Virus record (IMG/VR): IMGVR_UViG_2088090015_000152
Coordinates: 1-35,639 of that record
From: a virus
Length of the DNA: 35,639 nucleotides
Direction: 5' to 3' (one strand)
Shown piece by piece: positions 15,252-34,958 of the stretch (position 1 is the first letter of the stretch; each line of letters begins with the position of its first letter). The notes beneath the pieces are model-generated. The model had not been told where the DNA came from and searched no databases. It saw nothing but the letters and a program-made list of their open reading frames with translations. Both the position numbers and the translations under genes were made by a program.

Positions 15252-16835
15252 ATGACTCAGCAGTATCCGTGCCCGAATTGCGGCAAGCCGATGGTGCGCA
15301 ACTCAAAGGCTCAAAGCGGCAAACAACGTTGGGTGTGCAAGCGCTACGACAGAGGCGACAGCCGCGGAACGTACTGTTACTCAACCACCAACCCTGCCGG
15401 CGCAAAGACGGATCGCGCCGGCCGGCGCTCGAAGAAAGAGCCGGTGTTCCGACGCTCACTGGAGGGCACGGAGAGGTTCCTGGTTACGGCCGCGCAGAAC
15501 GCGACACCCGCGCACGAGGGTTTCATGCGCTCGCTCCAGCAAGCGTCTAAAGCGCTCGACGCGGAAATCCTGGTCATCCCCATCAGGTACAAGAACCCGA
15601 CGAGCGATTGGTCGGAAAGCCAGAAGAACGATGAGGTATGGTCGTCGGAGGTCAGCGATTATCTCTACAACGTGCGCCGCAACCTGAACCCGAATCTAAT
15701 CCTCATGGGCGACATCAAGACGCAGCCGACCGCGTCAGCGCCGCTCACCGGATTCGACGGCATAACTGGTGGCAGCTCCGGCATCTTCGGGCACACCAAG
15801 TTGCAGCTGCGCACCGTGCCTACGCCGCAAGGTCGTCTGCCAAAGATCCTGACGACGACTGGCGCATGCACGGTGCCGAATTACACCGACAGCCGCGCCG
15901 GCAAGCTCGGCGAATTCCACCACACGCTCGGCGCTGTGATGGTGGAGACCCGCGGCAAGGAATTCCACCTACGGCAGATCAACGCCGACAAGAGCGGCGC
16001 GTTCATCGACTTGGACAAGTGGTATACGCCGGACAGCGTGCAGAACGCACCGCCGGCACTCGCGCTGTCCATGGGCGACACGCATGTGCGTGCCGTGGAC
16101 CCGCAAGTCGTCGAGGCGACCTTCGGTCGGCTCGGCATTGTGGAAGTGCTGGACCCGCAGGTTCTCGCGTGGCACGACCTGTTAGACGGCGAGAGCATCA
16201 ATCACCATCACCGCGGCAACCCGTTCCTCGCTGCGCACAAACGAGCGTTCAACCTGGACGACGCGGAGCGCGAGGTTCAGGAAGCTATCGAGTTTCTCGG
16301 GAAGTACACGAAGGGACGCAAGTCCATCGTCGTGCCGTCTAACCATGACGACTTCCTGCAGCGTTGGTTGATGAGCGCCGATTGGAGGCAGGACCCAACC
16401 AACGCCGAGTTCTACCTGGAATCGGCGCTCGCCATGGTGCGGCAAGCGAAGCAGCGCGGCGCTGACGCAGAGCGCCTCAACGCGTTCACGTATTGGGTAC
16501 AGCGGCTGCTGAAAGGGCGGGGCGATATTCGGTGTCTGCAGAACGACGAGTCTTACAACGTCGGCGGCGTCGAGCTGAGCATGCACGGCGACCGCGGCCC
16601 GAACGGCGCTCGCGGCAGCATCAAGAATCTGCGCCGCATCGGCGTGAAGTCGATCATTGGTCACTCGCACAGTCCCGGCATCGACGAGGGCGCGTACCAG
16701 AACGGCACGAGCACGCGTCTGCGCCTCGGCTACAACGTCGGACCGTCGTCGTGGTTGAACGCGCACACGGTCGTCTACGCGAACGGCAAACGCTCGCTCA
16801 TCAACATCATTGACGGGAAGTGGAGGCTGGAATGA
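15252..16835 (+). CDS. Zinc-ribbon plus calcineurin-like metallophosphoesterase protein (probable nuclease)
   Basis: 527 aa from ATG 15252, after AAAAGGAA at 15240-15247. Residues 7-42 form a zinc-ribbon pattern: C7-P-N-C10, C29, C42. Residues ~75-260 contain VTAAQNATPAHEGF and LVIPIRYKNPTSDW. The C-terminal half has the metallophosphoesterase motifs in order: MGDTH (~274-278), a possible HDLLDGE second motif, SNHDDF (~363-368), MHGDRG (~444), and GHSHSPG (~471-477). Such domains in phages are usually Mn-dependent nucleases. The layout reminds me of the T5 A1 pre-early nuclease, but this is from memory and unverified. The gene lies between the holin and a membrane protein whose start it overlaps by ATGA. 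Confidence 0.7.
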   Translation: MTQQYPCPNCGKPMVRNSKAQSGKQRWVCKRYDRGDSRGTYCYSTTNPAGAKTDRAGRRSKKEPVFRRSLEGTERFLVTAAQNATPAHEGFMRSLQQASKALDAEILVIPIRYKNPTSDWSESQKNDEVWSSEVSDYLYNVRRNLNPNLILMGDIKTQPTASAPLTGFDGITGGSSGIFGHTKLQLRTVPTPQGRLPKILTTTGACTVPNYTDSRAGKLGEFHHTLGAVMVETRGKEFHLRQINADKSGAFIDLDKWYTPDSVQNAPPALALSMGDTHVRAVDPQVVEATFGRLGIVEVLDPQVLAWHDLLDGESINHHHRGNPFLAAHKRAFNLDDAEREVQEAIEFLGKYTKGRKSIVVPSNHDDFLQRWLMSADWRQDPTNAEFYLESALAMVRQAKQRGADAERLNAFTYWVQRLLKGRGDIRCLQNDESYNVGGVELSMHGDRGPNGARGSIKNLRRIGVKSIIGHSHSPGIDEGAYQNGTSTRLRLGYNVGPSSWLNAHTVVYANGKRSLINIIDGKWRLE

Positions 16836-17071
16836 GCACGTGGCTGCAGGCTGCAGCTGTGTTCACCGCGGTCGCGGTGGCAGACTTCGCATGGACGAAG
16901 TACATGATGCACGCGGCGGCCAAACACCCGCATCGTGCGGCGCTGTGGAACAGCGTCATTATCGCGCTCGGCTCCGTGAGCGTCGTATCGTACACGGAGA
17001 ACCACTGGATGCTTATTCCTGCGCTGCTTGGCGCATATGTGGGGACCTATGTCGCCGTACGTCGGGGATGA
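16832..17071 (+). CDS. Small membrane protein, 2-3 TM helices
   Basis: 79 aa from the ATGA overlap at 16832. The hydrophobic segments are AAAVFTAVAVADFAW (~7-21), VIIALGSVSVVSY (~42-54) and LIPALLGAYVGTYVAV (~61-76), with a His/Lys-rich loop between the first two (YMMHAAAKHPHRA). It is a polytopic inner-membrane protein. I have seen similar small 'FAWTKY' proteins in phages without an assigned function. It overlaps the next ORF. Possible roles are superinfection exclusion or lysis timing, but nothing in the sequence decides this. Confidence 0.7.
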   Translation: MSTWLQAAAVFTAVAVADFAWTKYMMHAAAKHPHRAALWNSVIIALGSVSVVSYTENHWMLIPALLGAYVGTYVAVRRG

Positions 17072-17525
17072 TCCGCAGAAGCAGGCTGTCTATCACATGG
17101 AAGACGACGATTTGCGCGGCCACTGCCGCCATCGTCTAAGCCTGCGGCTGCTTCGCAGATACGCGAACGAGCTGTGCGCTATGTACGAAGTGCCCGACGT
17201 GTCGATCAGCGTTTACGAGAACGGGTTGGGAGGGTCGTGTCTTGACGGCAAGATTCAGCTCGATCCGAAGTGCGGGATGAACGGTCTAACGCTCGCGCAC
17301 GAACTGGCGCATCACATTTGCGACGTGAAGTATCCGCGAGCGCAGAAGCACGGACCGATGTTTGCGTCCGTGTATGGCTGTCTGTTGAGCAGTCTTCGTC
17401 TTGTGCCGTTGCCGGGCTTCAGAGCTATCTGCAGGAAGCACGGCGTCCGGATCGCCCGGACGTGGCCGTTACCTCTGGAAAGCCCGAAAGCCCGGCTCCC
17501 TGTCCGGCCGCCCGCAGAATCCTGA
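17049..17525 (+). CDS. HExxH zinc metalloprotease-like protein (SprT/WLM-like)
   Basis: 158 aa with ATG 17049 as the preferred start (GGGGA just upstream). ATGs at 17028 and 17037 are also in frame, so the exact start is uncertain. The core is LTLAHELAHHICD, a clear HExxH zinc site, followed by AQKHGPMF, where the His may be the third ligand as in SprT-like and related small metallopeptidases. The N-terminal half is helical (RLSLRLLRRYANELCAMYEV). The last 25 residues are Pro/Arg rich. It is the last gene of the plus-strand block. A protease delivered or made late could mature virion proteins or cut a host protein; the substrate is unknown. Confidence 0.7.
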   Translation: MSPYVGDDPQKQAVYHMEDDDLRGHCRHRLSLRLLRRYANELCAMYEVPDVSISVYENGLGGSCLDGKIQLDPKCGMNGLTLAHELAHHICDVKYPRAQKHGPMFASVYGCLLSSLRLVPLPGFRAICRKHGVRIARTWPLPLESPKARLPVRPPAES

Positions 17526-24104: not shown

Positions 24105-24139
24105 GAGCGGCGGGCAAGTATTAGACGAGCCCGCCGCTC
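24105..24139 (-). terminator. 11-bp hairpin downstream of DUF2815 gene
   Basis: Perfect stem GAGCGGCGGGC (24105-24115) / GCCCGCCGCTC (24129-24139) with a 13-nt loop in the 106-bp gap 24070-24175. No T-tract follows on the minus strand. A smaller GTGCA/TGCAC stem-loop lies beside it near 24143-24156. This is probably an attenuator or mRNA 3'-end stabiliser that separates the abundant ssDNA-binding protein from the polymerase genes. Confidence 0.65.
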
Positions 24140-24175
24140 CAGTGCATCCCTGCACCTGGACTAAAGACAGCCCGA

Positions 24176-24730
24176 TCAGGCCATCACGTCCTCTTCCTCG
24201 GTTGCGTCAAGCTTCTGGAACTCGTCGTCCGTCGCCGCGCCGCCGCCGGAGAAGCGCTCGTCGTCGGAGAAGAACTGGACACCGCGCAGCGTCGCGTTGA
24301 TACGCTTGCCGAACTGGTTGTCCTGAGTCCAGATTTCCAGCAGCGCGATGACACGACAGCCGGAGTAGACGATGCCCGACTCCTGCGTGATGTCGTTCGC
24401 GTTGCGGTCCACGACGCGCGGCTTCGTCTGGTTGCGCGCCGACACGTAGAGGTTCCCCGCGTAGCCCGCGTAGGTCTTCGTGTCGCCGTTGTGCAGACAG
24501 AGCTTGTCCGTCGCTTCGAGCGCCTTGAGCTGAGCCGGACCTTTCTGGCCCCACTGCTCGTTCGCCAGTTCCGCGAACAAAGCGCGGAGCTTGGCGACAG
24601 CGGGGTGCGTCGGTTGGATCAGGAAAGAGGCGGCGAACGCCGGCTTGCTGCCGTTGACCGACTTGGCGGTCCAGATGTCGTTCGCGAACGCGATGCGACA
24701 GTTTTCGATGTTGAATTTCTTCGATGCCAT
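24176..24730 (-). CDS. DUF2815 ssDNA-binding-type protein
   Basis: 184 aa from ATG 24730, with AGGAG 9 nt upstream. The sequence FNIENCRIAFANDIWTAKSV, then FAASFLIQPTHPAVAKLRAL, DGDTK-like LHNGDTKTYAGYAGNLYVSA and GCRVIALLEIWTQDNQFGKR match the DUF2815 family, which phages encode beside DUF2800 and a family A polymerase. The C-terminus is acidic (DDEFQKL..TEEEDV), as in single-strand DNA-binding proteins that use an acidic tail to recruit partners. The likely role is coating ssDNA during replication or recombination. The hairpin after it may set its expression apart. Confidence 0.87.
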   Translation of the reverse strand: MASKKFNIENCRIAFANDIWTAKSVNGSKPAFAASFLIQPTHPAVAKLRALFAELANEQWGQKGPAQLKALEATDKLCLHNGDTKTYAGYAGNLYVSARNQTKPRVVDRNANDITQESGIVYSGCRVIALLEIWTQDNQFGKRINATLRGVQFFSDDERFSGGGAATDDEFQKLDATEEEDVMA

Positions 24731-25004: not shown

Positions 25005-25123
25005 CGCTTACCCCTCCGCCATTGTTCCAAACACGTCTCGCACAGCGACAGCGTCAACGCATCGCCACGGTGATACTGGACATACGTGCTCCAGTAGAAA
25101 AACGCAAAGCCTTCGCCGTTCAT
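25001..25123 (-). CDS. 40-aa hypothetical protein with CxxC
   Basis: ATG 25123 lies in an ATGA overlap with the DUF2800 stop, and the ORF ends in an ATGA overlap with the acidic zinc protein. The sequence GEGFAFFYWSTYVQYHRGDA is aromatic-rich, and a SLCETCLEQWRRGKR end has one C-x-x-C and a basic tail. GGAGG precedes the start. It is too small for a full zinc ribbon alone; it could dimerise or be a fragment. It is probably translated in strict coupling with both neighbours. Confidence 0.6.
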   Translation of the reverse strand: MNGEGFAFFYWSTYVQYHRGDALTLSLCETCLEQWRRGKR

Positions 25124-26436
25124 GCTTCCTCCATCGTTGACAGGTCTACAAACTCGTTGTCTTGCACTTCGCCGGTCCAGGGTGTGCCCTGCGCGCTGCC
25201 CTCGACGACCTTGGGCTTGCCGGGAGCCTGCGAGATAATCGTCTCGAACTGCTCCCACTGAGCCTTGGTCTTTTTCTTGTCGAGAATCTTGGCGGCCTGC
25301 GACGGACTGATGATCTTGCGCGGCGAGTACGCCTTGTCCGGCGGCAACACGCCGACCAGCATCGCCTCGGCCTTCGTCTCATCGCGCCACTTGCGGTCGC
25401 CCTTGCGGCCCTCGATGAGCTTGAGCGGTAGGCCGTCTACGCCCATGACTTCCATGCCGGCGAAGACTTGCCGTTCGCACTCAGCGCGCACGGAGCGACA
25501 CCACTCTTCGATCATGTCGAGGTTCGCGAAAGCTTGGCCGAGACGCGACGGCTGCGGGGGTTTCGGTCCGTTCAGCATGATCTCTTCGTGTGCCTGCGGC
25601 AGTTTGTCGAGGTCTACGAAATCCTGCATGACTTCGTCGAGCACCATTTTCTCGTGCGCCTTGCAGTTCGGCTTGTGCTTGCACCACAGACACGTCTTGT
25701 AGCTCGGACTGTAGTTCAGCAGATTCTTGTCGATTGGAAAGCCGTCGATCTTGCGCGCGATATAAAGCGCGTTCTCAGCCGCGGCCGCTTTCATCTTGGC
25801 CGCGAACTCGATGATTTCAGCGCGCGTGTACGACCGCTCGGTTGCACCCTCGAAGTTCAGCCGCGGCTGGTGGACGCGCATGTCGAACGTCTCGAAGTCG
25901 CCCATTAGACCGTCGAACGTCTCCAGCACGCCGACCGCGTAGCACAGCATCTGGTGGTTGTTGTCCGGGTAGACCTTGTGCCCGCGCCCGTACTTCAGAT
26001 CCTCGACGCTGACGTGCTTGCCGTCCGGCGAAATAAGGATGATGTCCGCCGTGCCGAACTGGTTGGGGATGCCAATGAAGCCGGAGAAGTCAACGCGCTG
26101 CTCGACGAGCAGCGTCCAGCCCTGCTCTACCCGCGAGTTGACGGAATCGAGCACGACCTGGACGAAGCCGGCCATCTCTTCGTCTACTTTGAACTCGCGG
26201 CGGTCTAATTCCTCGCCGGTCTCTTCGTCGAGCGTGATGACAGGGATGACGCGACCAAGAAAATACACCGCGTTCATCCGCTGCAGCAGACAGTCCGCGA
26301 GCAGCGTGTGCGCAGCCGTACCCTCGTCCGCGAAGGCGCTAGAGCCCACGCGGATATAAGCGAGTTCTTCGGCCATGCTCGCCTTGCATTCCATCCAACG
26401 ATGCGCGCTAGACGGCGACCATTTTGCGTGTGCCAT
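25120..26436 (-). CDS. DUF2800 PD-(D/E)XK exonuclease (Cas4/RecB-like, Cys cluster)
   Basis: 438 aa from ATG 26436 (AGGAG on the minus strand, 6 nt upstream). The RecB/Cas4-like nuclease motifs are EGTAAHTLLADCL (~38-50), GTADIILI (Asp), VEDLKYGRG (E-x-K-type pair as ED-x-K) and NHQMLCYAVG (Gln). Cysteines at WMECKAS and CLWCKHKPNCKAH are placed like the four ligands of a Cas4/AddB-type iron-sulfur cluster. In this phage replication module DUF2800 always sits next to DUF2815. The expected role is resecting DNA ends for recombination-dependent replication. The C-terminal third is unassigned. Confidence 0.87.
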   Translation of the reverse strand: MAHAKWSPSSAHRWMECKASMAEELAYIRVGSSAFADEGTAAHTLLADCLLQRMNAVYFLGRVIPVITLDEETGEELDRREFKVDEEMAGFVQVVLDSVNSRVEQGWTLLVEQRVDFSGFIGIPNQFGTADIILISPDGKHVSVEDLKYGRGHKVYPDNNHQMLCYAVGVLETFDGLMGDFETFDMRVHQPRLNFEGATERSYTRAEIIEFAAKMKAAAAENALYIARKIDGFPIDKNLLNYSPSYKTCLWCKHKPNCKAHEKMVLDEVMQDFVDLDKLPQAHEEIMLNGPKPPQPSRLGQAFANLDMIEEWCRSVRAECERQVFAGMEVMGVDGLPLKLIEGRKGDRKWRDETKAEAMLVGVLPPDKAYSPRKIISPSQAAKILDKKKTKAQWEQFETIISQAPGKPKVVEGSAQGTPWTGEVQDNEFVDLSTMEEA

Positions 26437-26459
26437 GTGATTCTCCTAGTTGGTGTGTT

Positions 26460-26549
26460 CGCTCTTTCGCGATGCGCTCCGGGTCCACGGTTAGGCACCG
26501 TTCTCAGCGAGGACTAACTTTCTTCCCCGAAGCGCATCGCGAAAGAGCG
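26460..26549. repeat. Large inverted repeat in the main intergenic gap of the replication block
   Basis: Left arm CGCTCTTTCGCGATGCGCT (26460-26478) and right arm AGCGCATCGCGAAAGAGCG (26531-26549) are perfect 19-bp complements. After one mismatch they extend 4 bp further inward (CGGG/CCCG), leaving a 42-nt centre that contains GTTAG/CTAAC. A third partial copy, CGCTCTTTCG, is at 26562-26571. The gap 26437-26611 has no ORF and no clear promoter or T-tract. It could be a replication origin, a protein-binding array or a transcription attenuator. Confidence 0.8.
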
Positions 26550-26611
26550 GGGCGGGTAGGGCGCTCTTTCGATTCCTACCACTTTAACCCTATCCAGGGA
26601 CCCCTATTCGA

Positions 26612-27091
26612 TCAGGCAGCGACAGCAGCCGCGGCCAGCACTTCGTCGAACGCCTTCTTGGCGGCCGCGTAGTTCTCCGGCTTCAGGGTGCTGATGTTTT
26701 TCGCGCCGAACTTGTCGAGGATCTCCCGCGCCTTCGGCGCACCGCCGGCAGCGGCGTTCGTGGCGAGCTGACCGACGACGGCCTTGATGTCGGCCTCCGT
26801 GACCTTGGCCGGCTCCACTTCGACGACAACGACCTTCTCGACGACAACGACCTTCTCGGCCTTGGCGGGCTCCGCCGCGACGACAGGTTCGGGGTCGGCG
26901 ATGACGGGCGATTCGACGACCTTGGCGGGCTTGGCGGCCTTCGCCGGCTTAGCGGGCGCGGCCTCTTCGCCGAGGAACGCGGCGAACGCACCCGCCGTGG
27001 TCAGCACTTCGTTGGCCGACGCGGCGGCACTGGCAATACTCTGCGTGCGATGGAAGTCCAGGGCGAGTTCGAGGGCTCTGAGTTTCGACAT
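26612..27091 (-). CDS. Hypothetical protein with Lys/Ala/Pro/Val linker and C-terminal helical domain
   Basis: 159 aa from ATG 27091, with AGGAG upstream on the minus strand. Residues 1-40 are helical (MSKLRALELALDFHRTQSIA). Residues 42-95 are low complexity, with AKPAKAAKPAKVV and a near repeat of VVVVEKVVVVEVE. The C-terminal domain, EADIKAVVGQLATNAAAGG and then AREILDKFGAKNISTLKPEN, looks compact and helical. I have seen this last pattern in phage proteins near replication genes without assigned function. Its place beside the PrimPol-helicase and the inverted repeat hints at a DNA-binding accessory role. Confidence 0.7.
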   Translation of the reverse strand: MSKLRALELALDFHRTQSIASAAASANEVLTTAGAFAAFLGEEAAPAKPAKAAKPAKVVESPVIADPEPVVAAEPAKAEKVVVVEKVVVVEVEPAKVTEADIKAVVGQLATNAAAGGAPKAREILDKFGAKNISTLKPENYAAAKKAFDEVLAAAAVAA

Positions 27092-27120: not shown

Positions 27121-29247
27121 TTAAGCTAGCAGCGTCGCTAGCTCAGTGTCAACAATCCAAACCTTGATGCTGCGGCCGGCGACGCGCTTTTGCATGCGCG
27201 TGTAGCCCAACGCACGCATCACGCGGCCGAGTCGCATTTCGTGGGCTTTGCTGACGTTGCGCGCGTCTATACCGACCGCGAGCGTCAACACATCGGCGGT
27301 CGTGTAGTGCTCCGCCTTTGTCTCGTCTAACCAGCGCGCGACGATGCCGGTCCAGTTGTCTTCCGACTCAAAGTCAGCGTGCGCGGCCTTGGCGAGCGTC
27401 TCCGCTTCTTTCCAGACGATGCCGTTGGCGAGCCACATTTCGTACGCCTCGGCCCACAGCTGCTCCATGTCACGCGCGATTTCCGCGGTCTTCACGCCGG
27501 TCGTGCGGACCGGGAGCCAGCGTCGGTTCTCGGTGTCGCTCAGAAACTCGTCTTCGTTGGTCGTGCCGATCATGATTAGGCGGCGCTCGAATGTCGTTGA
27601 GTGTTCCATGTACTTTGGTGTCCATTTCTCGTGCGTGCGCGTGATGAATGCTTTTATGCGGTCGGCGTCGGCGGTGCGCAAGCCGCGCAGCTCAGCCAGC
27701 TCGCCGATGAGACAGCCACGCATTTTGCGCGCAATCTCGTCGTCGTCTTCGTCCAGGCGAATCTCGACGAAGTAGGACGGGTCCGGAACCATGGCCTGAA
27801 TGCCGCGCGATTTGCCGATGCCCTGTCTGCCGACAAGGATAGGGCACATATCCGCCTGACAGCCCGGCTCCATCACGCGGCCGGCGAGCGCCGTCCACAA
27901 GTAGACACCGACGCTGCGCTCATAGGCAGCATCGAGCGTGCCCATGTAGCGCGGCATGAAGTCTTTTATTCGTTCGACGCCGTCCCACTTCAGGGACAGC
28001 AGCCAGTCTTGCGCGGAGTCCATTTTGTTCGCCTCTCCGATGTAATGAACGGTATCGCGGACAAGTTCCTTCGACACCGGATGAAAAAGCGCCTCGTTCT
28101 CAAGCCACAGTCGCGCGGCCGTATAGTCGGTGTCGCGGATCGGGCGCAGCAAGCCGTCGTCTTCCGGTGTGCTAATCATCAGCTCGTGCTTGAACGAATC
28201 GAACACAATCTTAGACTGGCACAGCTCCGGAATTTGCATGACCGTTAGCACGTTCGGCAGCGTCGCGTACGCGAAGCCGGCTTTGTCTCGGTCCATCGCA
28301 GCGAGTTGCTCAGCCGTAGACGCCGCCATCTGCGTGCGCTTAGTTCCCGGAACTATCGGTGCCGGCAGCTGCTTCATCGCCGCATCTACTTCGTCCTGCG
28401 TGATGACGCGGAACTCGTCGCCGCTCGCAGCAGTGTCAACGCGCAGGCTGTTACCCGTAACCGGGTTTTGTCCGTCTACGCGGAACGAGCGCCAGTGCGA
28501 CGCGAGGTCGTCGATGCTCTTGTATTTCGCACCGTCTTTAGACCACTCGTCCCACAGCTCCAGACCTTCGTCGTCGCCGTCGGTTTCGTAGTGGATCGCC
28601 ATGCCGACGCGTACCCACGAGTCGTAGTCGCTGTCCGGGTCGTGCTGGAACACCTTGTCGCGCAGCTCCGAGAGCTTCATGCGCGTCTCGCGCTCTGCGC
28701 GCGGAACTTTGTTGTCGGGCTTCACCATGCCCTGCCAAATCGTCAGCAGTTCCGCCGGCATCTGCGGGATTTTGCGCCAGTCGCCGAGTCCGGCCCACTC
28801 GTACGGCTTGCCGGTGTCGGGGTGAATAGACGGCGGCAGCACGTCCTGGACAGTCGTGCCGCGCTGGTTGCCGCAGCGAAGCTCGAAGCCGTGAGGCTTC
28901 AGATTGAATGTCGGGAGTATCGGGCCGCGATACAGCAGCTTGCCGCGCCCGGCGCGACCGCTGGAGATGCCGACCGTGTCGTTAGCGTTCAGCCACGTTG
29001 ACAGGTCAACGCCGCGCTCCGCGAACCAAGCCGCGGCTTTTTCCATGTCGTCGATGTCAAGGCACACCGTCCCTGAGTACGCATGGGCTAGACCCACGTT
29101 GCCGTCTAGGAATTCGGCAATCTCCGGGTCTGTGATGCACCGGCTGCGCTCTTGCCACCCTGCTAAGACCGGGCTCTTGAGCCCGGCGGGGATCGGAACA
29201 AGGACGAGCCCGGCGCGGCAATAGTCGCCGAGAATTTGTCGGGTCAT
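27121..29247 (-). CDS. PrimPol - PriCT - VirE/VapE-type primase-helicase
   Basis: 708 aa. N-terminal bifunctional primase-polymerase-like domain: VCLDIDDME (Asp64, Asp66), SGRAGRGKLLYR (~95-106) and QDVLPPSIHPDTGKPYEW. The usual His of the second AEP motif appears to be Lys here. Residues ~190-260 (DPDSDYDSWVRVGMAIHYET, LASHWRSF) look like a PriCT-2 primase C-terminal domain. The C-terminal VirE-like ATPase has LKWDGVERIKDF, Walker A LVGRQGIGKS (~Lys477), Walker B LIGELAEL, and IGTTNEDEFLSDTENRRWLP. It is the likely replication-initiating primase-helicase. The start at 29247 has no clear ribosome site and probably relies on the stop codon of the gene just upstream. Confidence 0.88.
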   Translation of the reverse strand: MTRQILGDYCRAGLVLVPIPAGLKSPVLAGWQERSRCITDPEIAEFLDGNVGLAHAYSGTVCLDIDDMEKAAAWFAERGVDLSTWLNANDTVGISSGRAGRGKLLYRGPILPTFNLKPHGFELRCGNQRGTTVQDVLPPSIHPDTGKPYEWAGLGDWRKIPQMPAELLTIWQGMVKPDNKVPRAERETRMKLSELRDKVFQHDPDSDYDSWVRVGMAIHYETDGDDEGLELWDEWSKDGAKYKSIDDLASHWRSFRVDGQNPVTGNSLRVDTAASGDEFRVITQDEVDAAMKQLPAPIVPGTKRTQMAASTAEQLAAMDRDKAGFAYATLPNVLTVMQIPELCQSKIVFDSFKHELMISTPEDDGLLRPIRDTDYTAARLWLENEALFHPVSKELVRDTVHYIGEANKMDSAQDWLLSLKWDGVERIKDFMPRYMGTLDAAYERSVGVYLWTALAGRVMEPGCQADMCPILVGRQGIGKSRGIQAMVPDPSYFVEIRLDEDDDEIARKMRGCLIGELAELRGLRTADADRIKAFITRTHEKWTPKYMEHSTTFERRLIMIGTTNEDEFLSDTENRRWLPVRTTGVKTAEIARDMEQLWAEAYEMWLANGIVWKEAETLAKAAHADFESEDNWTGIVARWLDETKAEHYTTADVLTLAVGIDARNVSKAHEMRLGRVMRALGYTRMQKRVAGRSIKVWIVDTELATLLA
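28341..28355 (-). repeat. Palindrome copy 2 inside the primase-helicase gene
   Basis: On the minus strand TAGTTCCGGGAACTA is identical to the copy at 13862-13876. Here it is coding and is read as part of I-V-P-G-T in the sequence PAPIVPGTKRT. Confidence 0.75.
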
Positions 29248-29484: not shown

Positions 29485-29550
29485 GCGGGTCCGCGAAACG
29501 GCCCGCAGAGTGCCATGTAAAAGAGGGGGCCGTCAAGCGACGACCCCCTC
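29485..29550 (-). terminator. Intrinsic terminator followed by a second hairpin
   Basis: On the minus strand GAGGGGG-U-CGUC / GACG-G-CCCCCUC (29523-29550, one U-G pair) is followed by TTTTA (29522-29518), a good rho-independent terminator. About 12 nt further a second hairpin, GCGGGCCG...CGGACCCGC (29485-29506), precedes the next start codon. The gap 29470-29556 contains no recognisable promoter, so the downstream primase-helicase probably needs readthrough. Confidence 0.75.
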
Positions 29551-30533: not shown

Positions 30534-31673
30534 TTATCCGAGAGCTGAGCGAGCCGCATTGATCTTCGCTTGCAGGCTGTATGCTGCCGCAGCCGCCGCA
30601 GCCTCTCGGTCTAACGCACCCTGGTACTGCCGGAGAACCTCTTCGAGTTCAGCGGCAGCAACGTCGCGTTCGGCCGCCGCCTTGTCATACATGCTCGTGG
30701 CGGTGTTGCGCTGCTCGATCGCGGCGTCACGTTCGTTACGCGCTTCGACTACCGCAGTTTCCGCCAGCGCGAACAGCGAATCGTATCTCGCCTTCTGGTC
30801 TGCAATCTGTGCGCGCAACGACGCGATGTATGCTTCGTTCTCAACAGAGCGCAGGTCCTCGTACGGCACGACCGGCGGCGTCGGAGCCTTGTACATTGCA
30901 GCGGTGTAAGCAGACCCGACATGGGTTGCACCCGGAACGGTTGCCCACGCCGCAGCGTCAGCGTCGCTCAGCGCGAGGATGAGGTTTCGCTTCGGAACCC
31001 CCGGCGCGAAATCTCGACCGACGTACTTCGCATGGAACGACGGCGCACCATTCACGATAGCCGCCTTGTGCTCGATGCAAACGCCGTTGCAGTATTTTTC
31101 TCCGCCTACCGGCGCAGACTTCGCGCTCTGCTGCCAGACGTTGTTGTGGACGATCTCGAAGCGCGGGTCTAACTGCATGCGCTTCTCGTGCGTGCGCCGC
31201 GCGAAGTCCACCGAACCGCTCGTCCAGTCCTGACGTTCAGCCTCCGGCCACGTATCCCACTGCAGTGTCACACCCCACGGGCGAACACCAAGCACGTCGT
31301 AGAACACGCCGTCCCACAGCTTTTGGTCTATGAGCATCGGCAGAAGCTCGTTCACGTGCCAGTCGGTCCACGCGGAGCCTACGCGGATGTCCGTGAGCAA
31401 TGCGGTGGCGCTGTTGCGGCGGTCGTTACCCCACAACGGGACCTTGGCGATGTCTCCCATGAACTGCTCCGCCTGCACGGCCGCGCTGCCAGCATTCAGC
31501 GCGCTGACGACAGAAATCGGGATGATGTAGCGGTAGACCTTGCCGCCCTTGTCGCGGAAGCGCTGGAACTCCGGCGCGTATGGGTTGCCCTGCCCTGTCA
31601 CAACGATAGCGGACGGGCCGGCGTAGGCGTCGAGGTTAGCGAGCCCGGAATAGGCTAGGAAAAGGGGGTTCAT
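30534..31673 (-). CDS. Glycoside-hydrolase-like TIM-barrel protein with C-terminal coiled coil
   Basis: 379 aa from ATG 31673 (AGGAG 7-8 nt upstream). Residues 1-260 look like a small TIM-barrel hydrolase of the 'putative glycosyl hydrolase' kind. It opens LFLAYSGLANLDAYAGPSAI, then GKVYRYIIPISVV, WHVNELLPMLIDQKLWDGVF followed by YDVLG (Asp121 and Asp126 are possible catalytic acids), IVHNNVWQ and NGVCIEH. Residues ~275-375 form a long heptad-rich coiled coil (NERDAAIEQRNTATSMYDKA). Barrel plus coiled coil suggests a trimer or virion-associated enzyme acting on a surface glycan, yet it sits in the early block. There is no signal peptide. A strong terminator lies just upstream. Confidence 0.65.
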   Translation of the reverse strand: MNPLFLAYSGLANLDAYAGPSAIVVTGQGNPYAPEFQRFRDKGGKVYRYIIPISVVSALNAGSAAVQAEQFMGDIAKVPLWGNDRRNSATALLTDIRVGSAWTDWHVNELLPMLIDQKLWDGVFYDVLGVRPWGVTLQWDTWPEAERQDWTSGSVDFARRTHEKRMQLDPRFEIVHNNVWQQSAKSAPVGGEKYCNGVCIEHKAAIVNGAPSFHAKYVGRDFAPGVPKRNLILALSDADAAAWATVPGATHVGSAYTAAMYKAPTPPVVPYEDLRSVENEAYIASLRAQIADQKARYDSLFALAETAVVEARNERDAAIEQRNTATSMYDKAAAERDVAAAELEEVLRQYQGALDREAAAAAAAYSLQAKINAARSALG

Positions 31674-31688
31674 GGTTTGCTCCTATGT

Positions 31689-31733
31689 AAATAAAAGACG
31701 GGCGATCATCGTCGCAGCGATGACCGCCCGTCT
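31689..31733 (-). terminator. Strong intrinsic terminator on the minus strand
   Basis: In minus-strand RNA, AGACGGGCG-G-UCAUCG pairs with CGAUGA-U-CGCCCGUCU (31696-31711 with 31718-31733; a 16-bp stem with one G-U), with loop CUGCGA and then UUUAUUU (T-tract 31695-31689). It ends only about 16 nt before the start codon of the glycoside-hydrolase-like gene, leaving no room for a promoter. That gene must therefore be reached by readthrough or antitermination. Confidence 0.88.
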
Positions 31734-34670: not shown

Positions 34671-34882
34671 AGCTTCGCCCTCGTCGGTGCATACTGCTCC
34701 AGTTCCGCTATGTACGCGAGCAGGTTCGTGCGCGTGTTGTCCACGTTGTCTTTGTTCGGCCATTCATGGCTGTCGCTGACTTCGCTAGCGAAGGCTTGAA
34801 CAAGCTCGACAGCGGTAGCTGAAGCGAGTTCGGCGGCTTGCCGTTCCGCGCGCGTCGGGCGTCTGGTGAAAGTTGCGTTCAT
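34667..34882 (-). CDS. 71-aa hypothetical helical protein
   Basis: ATG 34882 with AGGAGAG ~6 nt upstream. The N-terminus is basic (NATFTRRPTRAERQAAELAS), followed by a helical body (AVELVQAFASEVSDSHEW) and TRTNLLAYIAELEQYAPTR. It is the first gene after the strong stem at 34913-34949. Family unknown. Confidence 0.6.
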   Translation of the reverse strand: MNATFTRRPTRAERQAAELASATAVELVQAFASEVSDSHEWPNKDNVDNTRTNLLAYIAELEQYAPTRAKL

Positions 34883-34912
34883 GGTTCTCTCCTGTTTGAA
34901 CTGTCACTCAAG

Positions 34913-34949
34913 CTGTCACACTGCGCGTGCTAATAGCGCAGTGTGACAG
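34913..34949. terminator. 14-bp hairpin in an early intergenic gap
   Basis: Perfect stem CTGTCACACTGCGC (34913-34926) / GCGCAGTGTGACAG (34936-34949) with loop GTGCTAATA. A further CTGTCAC occurs at 34901-34907, and TTGAA flanks both sides as near-inverted sequence. There is no T-tract on either strand. The repeated CTGTCAC half-site makes an operator or binding site as likely as a terminator. Confidence 0.7.
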
Positions 34950-34958
34950 GTTCAATGC

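Follow-up and report, generated by a model that had tools for sequence, protein, structure and literature searches.

The strongest inverted repeat, or hairpin, of the window (the whole 35,639-nucleotide stretch of viral DNA analysed here, some 35.6 kb) lies in a 175-nt gap at positions 26437-26611, and its most likely role is that of an mRNA signal for processing or stability, rather than of a replication origin. Specifically, we propose, with a probability of about 0.4, that the early transcript of the minus strand folds here into an intercistronic hairpin, which would serve as an RNase III-type processing site. The duplex, its coding-strand polarity, its position and its recurrence in relatives are supported by the observations below, while the mechanism in the window (transcription through the gap, cleavage and an effect on expression) is suggested by likeness to lambda sib. 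The initial annotation had offered an origin, a binding array or an attenuator for this site; an attenuator- or processing-type cis-acting RNA element came closest to the evidence, and the origin was disfavoured.

The arms at 26460-26478 and 26531-26549 are perfect complements over 19 bp and extend to 26460-26483 and 26526-26549 (24 nt, 96% complementary, one mismatch), with 42 nt between them. A third copy, CGCTCTTTCG at 26562-26571 (CGAAAGAGCG in the minus-strand transcript), is an exact 10-bp match to the arm, and this decamer has three exact occurrences in the window, all inside the gap. We thus reproduced the coordinates and complementarity that the initial annotation had given for the arms, their extension and the partial copy. 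In 200 dinucleotide shuffles of the whole window the longest perfect arm was 15 nt (arms within 150 nt), and the analytic chance expectation of a perfect arm of at least 19 nt was about 4e-5. The repeat is known from one assembly; a second contig (L018/G001), 100% identical, ends short of the site. An identity as an intrinsic terminator was rejected, since no T-tract follows the stem on either strand (as had been noted before) and the stem is absent from a terminator scan of the window. A transposon or MITE was likewise rejected, as the ends have no evident target-site duplication and the arms vary between phages.

In agreement with the earlier placement, the gap, plausibly the largest gene-free one of the minus-strand block, is bounded by two minus-strand open reading frames, the DUF2800 exonuclease gene (25120..26436, 438 aa) downstream of the hairpin and a 159-aa gene (26612..27091, phrog_408) upstream. 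One gene further upstream is the primase-helicase gene (27121..29247, minus strand; Prim-Pol, PriCT_2 and VapE domains), and the minus-strand block, in which gene calls are heuristic, also holds a Gp2.5/DUF2815-type SSB (24176-24730, minus strand), DNA polymerase I and a helicase. In RNA of the minus strand, the coding strand here, the sole mismatch becomes a G-U wobble, a point absent from the initial annotation, and such RNA can therefore pair at all 24 positions of the stem. The 5' arm (CGCTCTTTCGCGATGCGCTTCGGG, 26526..26549, minus strand) has the U-run CUCUUUC at its outer end, the 42-nt loop (26484..26525, minus strand) contains an inner 5-bp helix GTTAG/CTAAC, and the 3' arm (CCCGGAGCGCATCGCGAAAGAGCG, 26460..26483, minus strand) ends 23 nt before the exonuclease ATG. 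Between the stem end and this ATG stands the Shine-Dalgarno sequence AGGAG (26443..26447, minus strand), read directly from the sequence, and on the other side an upstream folded domain (GGGGTCCC...CCTACCCGCCCC, 26550..26604, minus strand) is predicted to abut the long stem. The minus-strand RNA of the gap has a predicted folding energy of -78 kcal/mol (z -5.8), compared with z -4.6 for the plus strand. In Rfam searches of the window and relatives, no score reached the gathering threshold; with the limit relaxed to E<=10, the gap hit generic long-hairpin microRNA models only, with scores below that threshold.

Among the hairpin-bearing junctions of the minus-strand block, the exonuclease leader has the most extreme fold (z -6.3). 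The other such junctions are just before the starts at 31673, 29469 and 27091 and after the SSB gene, and three of them have U-tracts. Directly after the SSB gene lies a smaller tandem-hairpin element (24105..24159, minus strand, z -4.8), in which CCAGGTGCA-ggga-TGCACTGG abuts an 11-bp stem, GAGCGGCGGGC/GCCCGCCGCTC. Intrinsic terminator-like hairpins with U-tracts were seen directly before early-block genes at 31696-31733, 29523-29550 and 27122-27145 (minus strand). Elsewhere in the window, a 14-bp perfect hairpin (CTGTCACACTGCGC / GCGCAGTGTGACAG, 34905-34957) stands just before the gene starting at 34882, with an extra GTGACAG copy beside it, and is a possible operator; within the 159-aa gene, positions 26773-26970 form a repetitive coding stretch of CGACGAC and related units.

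If the hairpin is a processing site, transcripts from upstream would fold the gap into the 24-bp duplex that ends close before the exonuclease start codon, and an RNase III-type cut at the duplex would split the polycistronic mRNA, leaving hairpin-protected ends, so that the neighbouring replication and recombination genes would be expressed at different levels. PMC5371410 puts the minimum RNase III target at a duplex of about 22 nt, which the stem of 24 bp (one G-U) exceeds, and cites a retroregulation paper for lambda sib as an RNase III target. RNase III cleavage can leave stabilising hairpins on both products (PMC5371410). In relatives, a hairpin of this design lies directly behind a terminator whose U-run is the stem base, so that terminated RNAs would be free of the duplex and read-through RNAs would carry it. 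A bare long duplex may have many roles, and pairing at the DNA level may be compatible with covariation too; strand-specific features are the terminator-like hairpin that precedes the stem, the U-run with which the 5' arm opens, and the spacing from the start codon. Against the RNA-element reading we count that the window has no clean upstream terminator and that the relative G002 lacks the repeat in its orthologous gap.

The three copies could also form a cis-regulatory switch, in which the third copy (A), the 5' arm (B) and the 3' arm (C) would pair as A:B or B:C in a mutually exclusive manner and control transcription or exonuclease translation, possibly with the help of a trans factor, for instance the phage SSB. 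The window and G002 each have a third copy complementary to the 5' arm, BPP-1 has a partial one, and in L096, L098 and L101 the 3' arm contains a Shine-Dalgarno-like sequence or ends with it. However, the possible pairing of the third copy with the 5' arm in the window (10 bp, -13.5 kcal/mol) is outcompeted by the much more stable long stem (-56.7 kcal/mol), neither hairpin has a U-tract after it, and L104, L105 and L109 have no obvious third copy. The GG of the window's Shine-Dalgarno sequence is predicted to be mostly paired with upstream sequence, but this pairing is weak. We consider such a switch unlikely.

When about 190 related loci and a set of named phages were surveyed for hairpins, two classes of long inverted repeat emerged among the relatives. 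In the iteron type, the arms are tandem 7-10-bp repeats around an AT-rich loop of 39-104 nt (17 percentage points more AT than the genome), and in the loci checked the primase-helicase gene has the repeat at its 3' end; the tandem run had a mean of 9.5 and a range of 6-16 in 15 such repeats. The terminator-linked type consists of a 16-32-bp stem directly preceded by a short, GC-rich hairpin that often has a UUCG loop. The 5' arm of this stem opens with a U-run, the end of the stem usually lies 7-28 nt before a start codon, and the near-perfect stems have loops of 13-60 nt. This architecture was found in G002, BPP-1, SR18, Jess A, L006, L056, L058, L104, L105, L109 and others. The classes are separated by tandem-repeat content (mean 9.5 in the iteron type vs 3.3) and by loop AT (+0.17 vs -0.03). 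Hairpins at L096:867-949, L098:42-126 and L101:9892-9984, in L145 and in SR18/Jess A have CUUUCUGGCGAGG or CUUUGGCGAG as a common motif of their stems, in which a C-A mismatch recurs; the 3' arm includes the Shine-Dalgarno sequence in L096 and L098.

The window repeat, with a longest tandem run of 4 and a loop of 48% AT vs 38% for the window (+0.10), resembles the terminator-linked type. It has the long stem, the U-run and the 23-nt distance of that class; the place of the GC-rich terminator-like hairpin is occupied by the predicted upstream domain, which is not a clean or GC-rich terminator and is without the UUCG hairpin of relatives; a terminator hairpin in front of the stem is not clear. 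The outer 10 nt of the 5' arm held 87 U vs 11 A in 18 listed elements, the selection of which relied in part on visual inspection and on a CTTT anchor, and 4 U and no A in the window. In L104, L105, L109, L205 and L215, the terminator U-tract enters the read-through duplex.

The iteron-type repeats by the primase-helicase gene are plausible replication origins with fast-changing iteron sequence (L115:10149-10280, L126/L144:10631-10732, L031:12644-12753, L042:2006-2100, L058:1381-1488, L069:2395-2506, L109:506-625 and others). In BPP-1 (AY029185.2), the repeat of TTGCCTCGTTTGCCTCGTTT and its complement at record positions 26607-26710 (L284:108-211), downstream of bbp29 and past bbp28, is a candidate origin of that phage. 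Several observations would suit a replication origin at the window repeat, recognised by the primase-helicase. Relatives carry inverted repeats where their primase-helicase gene ends (3' end), the BPP-1 repeat is one small gene (bbp28) away, a spacing as in the window, the AT content of the window loop somewhat exceeds that of the genome, and the rest of the window yielded no iteron array. However, both classes coexist in L058, L069, L109 and BPP-1, each of which has a U-run hairpin apart from its iteron repeat (between bbp40 and bbp41 in BPP-1). The terminator-linked type is thus not simply an origin, and the early idea of an iteron origin in the window was dropped once both classes had been seen in single phages. 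Since the origin-like repeats of relatives are iteron arrays with AT-rich loops, and the window arms are without tandem iterons and match the second, coexisting class, an origin is disfavoured and in our view rather improbable. The block is also missing in G002 despite a 58% identical helicase, and GC skew, which is uninformative overall, shows no turn at the site.

The initial annotation had counted a loss of the arms in close relatives among the findings that would speak against its proposals, and at the level of sequence such a loss is what G002 shows. The closest relative, G002 (IMG/VR 3300021090_000003, 48 kb), is syntenic with the window, with identities of 57-58% for the helicase, 48% for the exonuclease and 61-63% for the polymerase. 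Its orthologous gap aligns to the window at both ends, upstream at the start (TGATCGAATAGGGGTC) and downstream at the Shine-Dalgarno sequence, but is without the repeat block; it has a weaker predicted hairpin (z -1.9). Two genes downstream of this gap, after the SSB gene, a stem of 21 perfect base pairs stands in G002, 24 nt ahead of the following ATG and with CTCTTTC at its 5' base as in the window. G002 also has a gene-poor stretch (16500-17340, L028) in which the motifs GGAGGGACCC and GGTAGCA recur and a 20-bp inverted repeat lies at 17268-17332; this stretch is a possible control or origin region. An exact scan of IMG/VR with the arm sequence and a BLAST search of the gap against plasmids gave no match, BLAST matches of the 1.5-kb region to phages were confined to part of the exonuclease gene, and a profile search of genome contigs with a helicase alignment gave a single distant match of no use.

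Across relatives, then, only the architecture recurs, mostly at gene junctions other than that of the window. When stems with a score of at least 13 were counted in non-redundant relatives, 12 of 79 regions that follow the SSB gene had one, compared with 7 of 486 other flanks (Fisher p 6e-7); L115 and L148 among the 12 are iteron-type, and without them the count is 10/79. The other flanks gave 0/76 upstream of the SSB gene, 0/79 inside its coding end, 0/91 downstream of the exonuclease gene, 3/74 before and 1/77 after the polymerase gene, and 3/89 before the exonuclease gene (the window, L145 and L147, the last grouped with L146).

In BPP-1-like phages, whose SSBs share 87-99% identity among themselves, three parts are mostly conserved, namely the terminator hairpin, the stem base CGCUUUG/CAAAGCG and the downstream flank AACAC..., and the inner stem differs in sequence yet remains paired. 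Inner stem positions 8-16 formed 8.4 of 9 Watson-Crick pairs within a phage and 3.6 of 9 when the arms were crossed between phages, in a comparison of seven sequences that are related because the search was seeded with the BPP-1 group, with kinship uncorrected. L210 differs entirely from L208/L211 in hairpin stem and loop, with SSBs 98-99% identical and flanks nearly the same, as if the hairpin had been exchanged as a cassette; L206 has a short version of the hairpin only. Such replacement of the inner stem with pairing kept would suggest diversifying selection or cassette exchange. Together these elements may represent an undescribed class of phage RNA, a terminator plus a hypervariable hairpin at SSB, exonuclease and polymerase operon junctions with the window hairpin as its largest member, a grouping that we put forward tentatively and hold to be doubtful.

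The repeat might instead be a functionless inverted duplication left by template switching, a process by which long repeats can arise and be homogenised, and at this gap it was seen in one phage only. The recurrence at preferred junctions and the retained pairing in relatives speak against such a by-product, to which we assign little probability. Least probable is an operator array in which an early regulator binds the three CGCTCTTTCG copies: exactly three exact decamers, all in the gap, would fit, but the complementarity reaches 24 bp, past the decamer, no further exact copy exists in the genome, and the gap has no promoter-like site.

If the RNA-element reading is true, a common phage group that includes the model phage BPP-1 has an uncatalogued structured RNA between its recombination and replication genes. 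The swapping of stems between near-identical phages then raises the question of what drives fast change with pairing kept, and separating these hairpins from origin-like iteron repeats should aid the annotation of phage origins.

Several known systems resemble the element in part. A motif survey by Weinberg in 2017 reportedly included DUF2800 and DUF2815 RNA motifs, that is to say RNA elements that accompany these two families of genes; unlike these, the gap has no Rfam match beyond the sub-threshold microRNA models, and the literature searched yielded no paper on the DUF2800 RNA motif. Iteron origins of the SaPI and P4 type likewise follow a primase-helicase gene and have inverted repeats of comparable length, but the window has neither tandem iterons nor a clearly AT-rich loop, and it has a strand-polarised U-run and a start codon close by. 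The RNase III sites between the early genes of T7 are, like the present hairpins, intercistronic within one transcript; they are irregular with bulges, whereas the stems here are near-perfect with loops of 13-60 nt. In the sib / tI retroregulator of lambda int, the duplex forms only in RNA that has read through the terminator, and in the relatives a terminator-like hairpin is likewise followed at once by an RNA duplex possible only in read-through transcripts. Unlike in sib, the duplex here is a separate long hairpin before the Shine-Dalgarno sequence of the next gene, and the terminator part in the window is weak.
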